Source: Chromobacterium subtsugae (lineage in GTDB: Bacteria > Pseudomonadota > Gammaproteobacteria > Burkholderiales > Chromobacteriaceae). From it: DNA of 64,000 bases. The stretch is from the NCBI RefSeq assembly GCF_001676875.1, contig NZ_JYKA01000006.1, positions 124,001 through 188,000 of the forward strand, given 5' to 3'. How positions within the stretch are numbered: position 1 is the first letter of the stretch; the number at the start of each line of letters is the position of its first letter. The notes under the pieces were generated by a model. That model did no database searches, was not told the origin of the DNA, and was given only the letters and a program-made list of their open reading frames with translations. The translations under genes and the position numbers were made by a program. Shown here in pieces: positions 8,532-8,688 of the stretch.

Positions 8532-8572
8532 AAAAACAAACCCGGTGCGCCTTGTCGGCAGCCTCCGGGTTT
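8532..8572 (-). terminator. Attenuator terminator ahead of trpS
   Basis: Perfect 8-bp inverted repeat AAACCCGG/CCGGGTTT with a small inner GCC/GGC stem and, on the reverse strand, a TTTGTTTTT tract. It lies about 60 bases upstream of trpS, after the leader peptide stop. Confidence 0.85.
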
Positions 8573-8598
8573 TTTGCGTGCGCGTTCGCCGGTGCCGC

Positions 8599-8652
8599 CT
8601 AAGAGAGGCGCCACCACCAAAAACGGATTGCGAAAGCGGGTGCGGTATTCAT
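8599..8652 (-). CDS. Trp-rich leader peptide of the trpS attenuator
   Basis: A 17-codon reading frame encoding [17 protein letters not shown], ending in TAG. Three consecutive TGG codons (8611-8619) lie inside the 5' arm of the pause hairpin, the position expected for sensing charged tRNA-Trp. No good Shine-Dalgarno sequence precedes the ATG. The predicted -10 element would put the transcript start almost at the ATG, so the peptide may be translated from a leaderless or very short 5' end, or from a longer transcript. Confidence 0.8.
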
Positions 8653-8658
8653 GGTTTC

Positions 8659-8688
8659 ATCAAACCATGCGGCAGGGCAGGGCGTCAA
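8659..8688 (-). promoter_or_regulatory. Candidate promoter of the trpS leader
   Basis: TTGACG (-35, 8683-8688) and TTTGAT (-10, 8659-8664) with an 18-base spacer on the reverse strand. The -35 element overlaps the stop codon of the upstream small gene. The -10 lies within a 20-base palindrome (8650-8669) that also covers the leader ATG. Confidence 0.5.

Follow-up and report, generated by a model that had tools for sequence, protein, structure and literature searches.

A predicted ribosome-mediated attenuator precedes an auxiliary tryptophanyl-tRNA synthetase gene in Chromobacterium and other Pseudomonadota

The attenuator of the Escherichia coli trp operon combines tandem Trp codons, four alternating strands and an intrinsic terminator. 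The same three features are found upstream of trpS, a tryptophanyl-tRNA synthetase (TrpRS) gene, in the 64,000-nucleotide stretch of Chromobacterium subtsugae DNA that was analyzed here as a whole (hereafter the window; contig NZ_JYKA01000006.1, positions 124,001 to 188,000). Unlike the E. coli element, the window element has a synthetase rather than biosynthesis as its target, a leader without a Shine-Dalgarno (SD) sequence, and no match in Rfam. Attenuators of synthetase genes, known or predicted, are published for pheST in gammaproteobacteria and for trpS and leuS in Streptomyces, with the Streptomyces avermitilis trpS2 attenuator among them (PMC1262725), for trpS, leuS, thrS and alaS in Streptomyces lividans (PMC8079986) and for hisS paralogs in bacilli (PMC2965389). 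The E. coli-type pheST element is likewise a leader-peptide attenuator on a synthetase operon, for another amino acid and another gene (PMC1262725). A 2010 paper by Vecchione and Sello, as cited in PMC4787780, announces in its title that the gene for an auxiliary and antibiotic-resistant TrpRS of Streptomyces coelicolor is under ribosome-mediated transcriptional attenuation. A first-pass annotation of the window had set an attenuator on a charging enzyme apart from the classical ones of biosynthetic operons; because attenuators of synthetase genes, Streptomyces trpS included, are in print (PMC1262725, PMC8079986), the arrangement is less unexpected than was thought.

The Streptomyces trpS attenuators resemble the window element in placing a Trp leader before trpS, in the leaderless start reported for S. 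lividans trpL2 (PMC8079986) and, going by the 2010 title, in controlling an auxiliary TrpRS. They differ, by their published descriptions, in belonging to another phylum. In S. lividans the leader contains just one Trp codon and lacks a uridine-rich tract, and the available portions of the Streptomyces accounts mention no counterpart of the additional strand (strand 5) of the window element. The trpL RNA of Sinorhizobium meliloti begins at the ATG of its Trp leader (PMC7298713), as we predict for the window; unlike the window element, it controls trpE(G), and its RNA and peptide act in trans. A single leader peptide is reported to combine transcription and translation attenuation at Bacillus subtilis tlrB (yxjB), a system that, unlike the window element, senses tylosin, and in which it is the stalled ribosome that keeps the two structures from forming, with no five-strand chain described in the part of the report available (PMC6851288). 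Lopatovskaya, Seliverstov and Lyubetsky (2010), writing on attenuation in operons for amino acids and aminoacyl-tRNAs, are cited in PMC4833913 for helix chains in RNA and for overlap with the site where the ribosome binds; that work may overlap with the present case, and among the literature listed no title concerns attenuation of trpS in Pseudomonadota. The kind is already known, trpS of Streptomyces included, and from its sequence the Pseudomonadota version appears to be a variant of it.

All parts of the window attenuator lie on the minus strand, flanked by a short upstream ORF and by trpS (7449..8471), which encodes an auxiliary TrpRS of 340 residues (NCBIfam TIGR00233, 239 bits against a cut-off of 176.75). 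As the first-pass annotation had held, a 17-codon leader peptide ORF with three tandem Trp codons precedes trpS: it occupies 8599..8652, running from an ATG at 8652..8650 to a TAG stop codon at 8601..8599, and codons 12–14 read TGG TGG TGG (8619..8611). Six nt separate the leader ATG from a −10-like hexamer, TTTGAT (8659..8664), with four of six consensus matches; a −35-like hexamer, TTGACG (8683..8688), stands 18 nt upstream of the −10-like one. Strand 1 (8606..8621) contains the Trp codons and pairs with strand 2 (8585..8600), in which positions 8585-8600 face strand 1 and positions 8589-8599 face strand 3. The terminator hairpin (8538..8572, −20.0 kcal/mol) consists of strands 3 and 4; strand 3 (8557..8568), which belongs to the 5′ arm and loop of the terminator, is the stretch complementary to strand 2. 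The perfect terminator stem and T tract that had been annotated are both there, GTTTTT coming directly after an outer stem (AAACCCGG/CCGGGTTT) of 8 bp without mismatch, and the T tract as a whole (TTTGTTTTT, 8532..8540) having its initial three T inside the stem. Strand 5 (8495..8511) is complementary to the terminator arm and loop in relatives, with co-variation in the sequence group labeled chr, and its 3′ part, GGTCTCC (8495-8501), is able to pair with the trpS SD region, GGAGATC (8475..8481), which precedes the trpS ATG at 8471. A chorismate-mutase-like gene (7126..7434), whose profile scores are below curated cut-offs, follows trpS after 14 nt and is probably co-transcribed with it.

We regard it as highly probable that these parts make up a ribosome-mediated transcription attenuator that controls the auxiliary trpS. 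The parts, their conservation and the promoter-like pair come from sequence and comparison; the start site, stalling, termination and induction are what we infer from them. Transcription would begin at or beside the leader ATG, with a ribosome translating the 17-codon leader behind the moving RNA polymerase. When Trp-tRNA is plentiful, the ribosome would arrive at the stop codon and cover strand 2, so that the 3:4 terminator forms and no trpS is made. When Trp-tRNA is scarce, be it through Trp shortage or because the main TrpRS is inhibited or overloaded, the ribosome would stall on the Trp codons, strand 2 would capture strand 3, the terminator would be blocked and the auxiliary TrpRS would be produced. 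The earlier proposal that the attenuator makes trpS respond to charged tRNA-Trp thus stands in its core, which conservation supports well, but the target is an auxiliary TrpRS and not the only one.

Retention of the Trp codons in orthologous leaders, to which the first-pass annotation had looked, is widespread. A short ORF with Trp codons precedes trpS in 71 of 80 related loci, these being the best 80 of at least 582 returned from the genome collection; 65 of the 71 leaders have two or three adjacent Trp codons and six have one. The nine loci of the 80 in which no Trp leader was found are from Collimonas (L046, L054, L062, L074), Methylophilus/Methylobacillus (L069, L080, L081) and Undibacterium (L075, L082). 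The two Undibacterium loci retain a terminator-like hairpin of the GCCGCC type. In L058, L068, L073, L078, L083 and L018 the leader is down to one Trp codon, with two Arg codons behind it, the promoter-like pair is retained, and five of these six follow a common pattern of the ox type. Within the genus, a set that includes genomes matching Chromobacterium vaccinii and C. alkanivorans, gene and leader are both present in 19 of 19 genomes (18/18 without the window's own). A phylum-wide draw of 398 genomes yielded 25 with this TrpRS at E ≤ 1e-90, and among the 24 besides that of the window a Trp leader is found in 19 (with a single Trp codon in L094) and is absent in five.

In more distant groups the leader is present in 29 of 30 fetched loci of the Vibrionaceae type (the family of G066, from 69 genomes with the gene), in all 19 loci of the enterobacteria type (the family of G166; 18 by scan and L155 by hand), and in 5 of 30 of the alpha type by scan (the class of the G075 draw), plus one single-Trp leader, many of the other alpha-type loci coming from genomes near 1 Mb. 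Among 88 plasmid records with the gene, named records were opened in eight cases and the leader was present in all eight. The plasmid leader of Vibrio sp. THAF190c is identical to that of L174 and the one of Photobacterium sp. DA100 to that of L188, while a Klebsiella pneumoniae plasmid leader is close to those of L145 and L146; the others come from Salinivibrio kushneri, Variovorax sp. and the alphaproteobacterial Rhizobium ruizarguesonis, Methylocystis rosea and Bosea sp. The labels Vibrionaceae-type, enterobacteria-type and alpha-type (vib, ent and alpha below) are used because named plasmid records bear the same or nearly the same leaders; the labels chr, burk and ox denote terminator and leader sequence patterns and not strict taxonomy. 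Going by these sequences, the predicted element is present in alpha-, beta- and gammaproteobacteria, and the leader is either old or has moved together with trpS, a gene that is mobile, since plasmid copies exist. Outside the Trp codons the leader peptide differs between clades.

No Rfam leader family matched the element. A search of the window leader region against Rfam returned three chance-level matches nearby, none to a leader family, a search of 19 upstream regions gave no match at E 0.1, and the sole match at gathering score among 18 loci was a fluoride riboswitch elsewhere; a known Rfam leader family is rejected on this basis, as no covariance model of one matched. A fluoride riboswitch (crcB motif, 47.5 bits) lies at L024:5765-5848, downstream of trpS in a Janthinobacterium locus.

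The promoter-like pair recurs at a fixed distance from the leader. In a first set of 72 leaders, 67 have the −10 element of their best −35/−10 pair 6 or 7 nt upstream of the ATG. In this set the promoter-fitting ATG was chosen for the 17 leaders with more than one in frame and L068 was added by hand; in L019 an alternative ATG would change the gap from 10 to 7. A second set of 60 further leaders, with the ATG chosen blind to the promoter so as to give the shortest frame of 14 or more codons, has the gap at 6 or 7 in 50 (L157 and L161, positive by scan, failed the rule, and eight phylum-draw loci from the same genomes as later loci are omitted), compared with about 10% for each gap of 3 to 7 at 3962 random ATGs. 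The window leader has a promoter score of 9.0, against 5.56 ± 1.10 at random ATGs; many burk leaders have a poorly matching −35 element. SD-like sequence precedes the leader in none of the 72 and in 5 of the 60, and precedes trpS in 60/72 and 56/60. Because the promoter-like pair adjoins the ATG and there is no SD site, a leaderless leader mRNA is the simplest reading, and the predicted transcript start is probably at or beside the leader ATG, with the leader translated from leaderless RNA.

A transcription start that is not downstream of the leader, as the first-pass annotation required, is favored by a conserved promoter-like pair directly upstream of the leader, but a stricter promoter scan of the window lists only a pair at 8464..8437, inside trpS, and not the leader pair. 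That internal pair would suit a quite different account, in which the upstream gene has an ordinary terminator, the ORF is a chance one, and trpS is transcribed from its own downstream promoter. We consider this account extremely improbable. Of the 330-nt stretches upstream of trpS, 58 of 81 contain an ATG-initiated ORF of 11–27 residues with WW in its last eight codons, compared with just 18 of 2778 random 330-nt windows from the same loci, and alpha-, beta- and gammaproteobacteria all show the leader, its Trp codons, the promoter-like pair and the order of the strands. The same conservation speaks against a mere terminator of the upstream gene, and this reading was rejected.

The hairpin over the Trp codons, annotated earlier as a pause hairpin, is present in the window with 1:2 at −23.6 kcal/mol and a shuffle p of 0.045. 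Among the 72 first-set sequences, 1:2 is better than with a shuffled strand 2 at p ≤ 0.05 in 28, and the number of within-clade partner swaps that are as good as the native pairs, of 5000, is 0 in ox, 1305 in chr and 3895 in burk. The competing 2:3 pairing comprises 10 bp (GGCGGC and CCGG against CCGG and GCUGCC; −19.5 kcal/mol). Computational folding of the leader states, which had been suggested as a check, gave the following: before strand 4 exists, the fold contains 2:3 whichever of the three Trp codons the ribosome is constrained to (−18.3 to −18.7), and with the ribosome at the leader stop codon the terminator 3:4 forms. The earlier claim of an alternative pairing of about ten base pairs that disrupts the terminator is hence upheld in length and in constrained folds, but not by statistics, the p value against shuffled strand 2 being 0.38 in the GC-rich window and ≤ 0.05 in 18 of the 72 first-set sequences, with no co-variation by within-clade swaps in any of chr, burk and ox. 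Both strands hardly change, which is why 2:3 is without co-variation. The predicted antiterminator is thus founded on conserved sequence and logic and not on covariation, and is not statistically proven.

The terminator itself is unevenly kept. A simple scan of the window for terminators with loops of 3–8 does not list this one, probably because its loop is long and structured; in the first set, terminator coordinates were anchored on motifs, four being set by hand. Counting any hairpin of ≤ −8 kcal/mol with a T tail, which in some sequences is a hairpin other than 3:4, gave chr 12/14, burk 26/27, ox 21/31, ent 14/18, vib 16/31 and alpha 7/11. At least five T within the 9 nt right after strand 4 are present in 12 of 29 vib, 5 of 14 ent and 4 of 11 alpha sequences, and 5 of the 19 same-genus leaders end in GGGTTTCCAG. 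Termination does not appear to be conserved everywhere, because a T tract is missing after strand 4 in many relatives and because of the GGGTTTCCAG endings.

We also compared the pairing of strand 5 with the terminator 5′ arm and loop (5:T), and with the trpS start region (5:R), between native and swapped partners within clades. For 5:T, none of 5000 swaps was as good in chr (14 sequences), burk (27), ox (31), vib (29) and alpha (11), and 154 were as good in ent (14); for 5:R, the numbers as good were 28 in chr, 1 in burk, 33 in ox, 0 in vib, 1 in ent and 45 in alpha, and all of these values leave independent events uncounted and are inflated by relatedness to an unknown degree. In the vib, alpha and ent tests strand 5 was taken to begin after strand 4, and L153, L154, L156 and L160, for which no hairpin was placed, were left out. 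These results raise the possibility of a two-gate, five-strand switch, in which strand 5 can also hide the trpS ribosome-binding site; such a switch would extend the attenuator reading without contradicting it. Once 3:4 has formed, strand 5 would close the trpS start and so silence leaky readthrough. With the leader ribosome stalled, strand 3 and the loop would take up strand 5 and the trpS start would open; in one vib group (L162, L164, L180, L184) strand 5 seems, by eye, to pair with strand 4 instead, which would leave the logic unchanged.

Other comparisons divide on this second gate. Against shuffled sequences at p ≤ 0.05, 5:T stands out in 41 of the 72 first-set sequences (chr 12/14, burk 26/27, but ox only 3/31), and in vib 23/29, alpha 11/11 and ent 5/14; 5:R does so in only 13 of the 72 (three chr, ten burk and none of 31 ox), and in vib 18/29, alpha 3/11 and ent 6/14. 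The window alone gives p 0.04 for 5:R (GGUCUCC/GGAGAUC) and p 0.24 for 5:T. An uninterrupted anti-SD helix of 7 bp or more occurs in 27 of 29 vib sequences (shuffled mean 9.4, maximum 16; the Vibrionaceae-type leader of L110 has a 9-bp pairing), in 5 of 13 chr sequences (mean 1.8, maximum 4) and in 8 of 16 further same-genus sequences, this last count lying within the shuffled maximum of 9 (mean 3.0). At a length of at least 6 bp it is found in 12 of 27 burk sequences (mean 5.5, maximum 10) and is at chance level in ox (2/27), ent (6/18) and alpha (5/11); L199 and L207, which resemble the genomes of L004 and L005, are omitted from these helix counts. Judged in this way, a helix that would sequester the SD is clearly beyond chance in vib only. 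Within the genus there are changes on both sides of the helix: GGTCTCC/GGAGATC, CAGTCTCC/GGAGACTG and GGTTTCC/GGAAATC. Equilibrium folding makes the trpS start more open without 3:4 in just 22 of the 72 sequences and less open in two, the rest being unchanged, and the window shows no change between the two states (0.42 vs 0.39). At L033 there is an insertion of about 120 nt between strand 5 and the trpS start, and the CCTCGATG complement is kept.

Strand 5 co-variation suggests a translational gate, strongly in Vibrionaceae and marginally in the window, and on balance we lean slightly against the two-gate switch as a whole. The same complementarity between the terminator arm and loop and the trpS mRNA upstream of its start would also fit a released attenuator RNA or leader peptide acting in trans, like rnTrpL/peTrpL of S. 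meliloti, with the terminator loop as a seed on the trpS mRNA, and a probably leaderless leader is a further likeness to trpL (PMC7298713). We hold action in trans to be improbable: intramolecular pairing explains this complementarity, and the peptide beyond the Trp codons varies between clades. The broadest formulation to which the attenuator reading extends seems to us evenly poised. On this view alpha-, beta- and gammaproteobacteria would share an attenuator of five strands and two gates that is old and matches no Rfam family. Its Trp leader, itself leaderless, would act initially on a terminator and subsequently on the site at which ribosomes bind the message of an auxiliary TrpRS of the drug-insensitive type. 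Lineages would shift the weight, toward the terminator in Burkholderiaceae-type and Chromobacteriaceae-type sequences and, in Vibrionaceae, toward the hairpin at the binding site, but would all keep the chain of pairings. If the second gate is real, competing RNA strands would form a chain by which one leader peptide governs both transcription and translation, and the clades with compensating changes would make each step testable by reporter.

The genome has two TrpRS genes, the trpS of the window and the main one at G000:C23; the window gene encodes an auxiliary TrpRS and not the cell's sole one. No ORF with two or more Trp codons lies within 500 nt upstream of the main trpS. Elsewhere in the same genome, trpE (C7:63381) is closely preceded by a 24-codon ORF (MAFLPAPASWRWRRCTRSRRPAPN; L084:1329-1403, on C7) that contains two Trp codons; this ORF is possibly a second Trp leader and has no obvious terminator. 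Among solved structures the window enzyme best matches Deinococcus radiodurans TrpRS II (1yi8, 2a4m; 411 bits), and both have Gln at the same column. In an alignment that reads all 159 related enzymes (a motif pattern alone reads 97 of 159), this Q51 column holds Gln in the window enzyme and in 159/159 relatives, and His in the main enzyme; its correspondence to the H43 column is based on alignment to 2el7 and on the motif. An H43N change in Bacillus-type TrpRS confers indolmycin resistance (PMC4899734). Because Gln replaces the His that is tied to indolmycin sensitivity, we infer that the window TrpRS is possibly of the indolmycin-insensitive type.

The D. radiodurans TrpRS II interacts with a nitric oxide synthase (PMC9437257). 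A PF02898 search of the C. subtsugae genome did not find a nitric oxide synthase (a control search was positive in 2 of 14 genomes), and a pairing of TrpRS II with this enzyme was rejected; in this the window enzyme differs from its best solved match. A chorismate-mutase/isochorismate-lyase-like gene downstream of trpS is also present in 8 of the 80 related loci (L004, L006-L011, L013; best 80 of at least 582). Since such a gene trails trpS so closely in the window, the attenuator may also influence this branch point of aromatic synthesis.

A spare and possibly inhibitor-insensitive TrpRS would thus be tied to the very quantity that the main enzyme makes. With expression tied to charged tRNA-Trp, the spare enzyme would therefore switch on at any failure of charging, whether from Trp shortage or from a TrpRS poison. 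The same standby logic is described in Streptomyces, and, as many Pseudomonadota carry the element, standby protection of tRNA-Trp charging would seem to be common. A tree built from the 159 relatives plus the window and main enzymes has three monophyletic groups, namely the beta sequences, the vib sequences and the six alpha sequences that have a leader; vib and ent sequences cluster together, ent not being monophyletic, and alpha sequences that have no leader are scattered. Relatives of this TrpRS occur in 23 records of Staphylococcus plasmids, at about 56-58% identity among the matches listed. On the K. pneumoniae plasmid pB18083_2 (L217, 1-494 and 701-1708), which is typed as conjugative, the tryptophan permease gene mtr lies directly upstream of the leader and auxiliary trpS.
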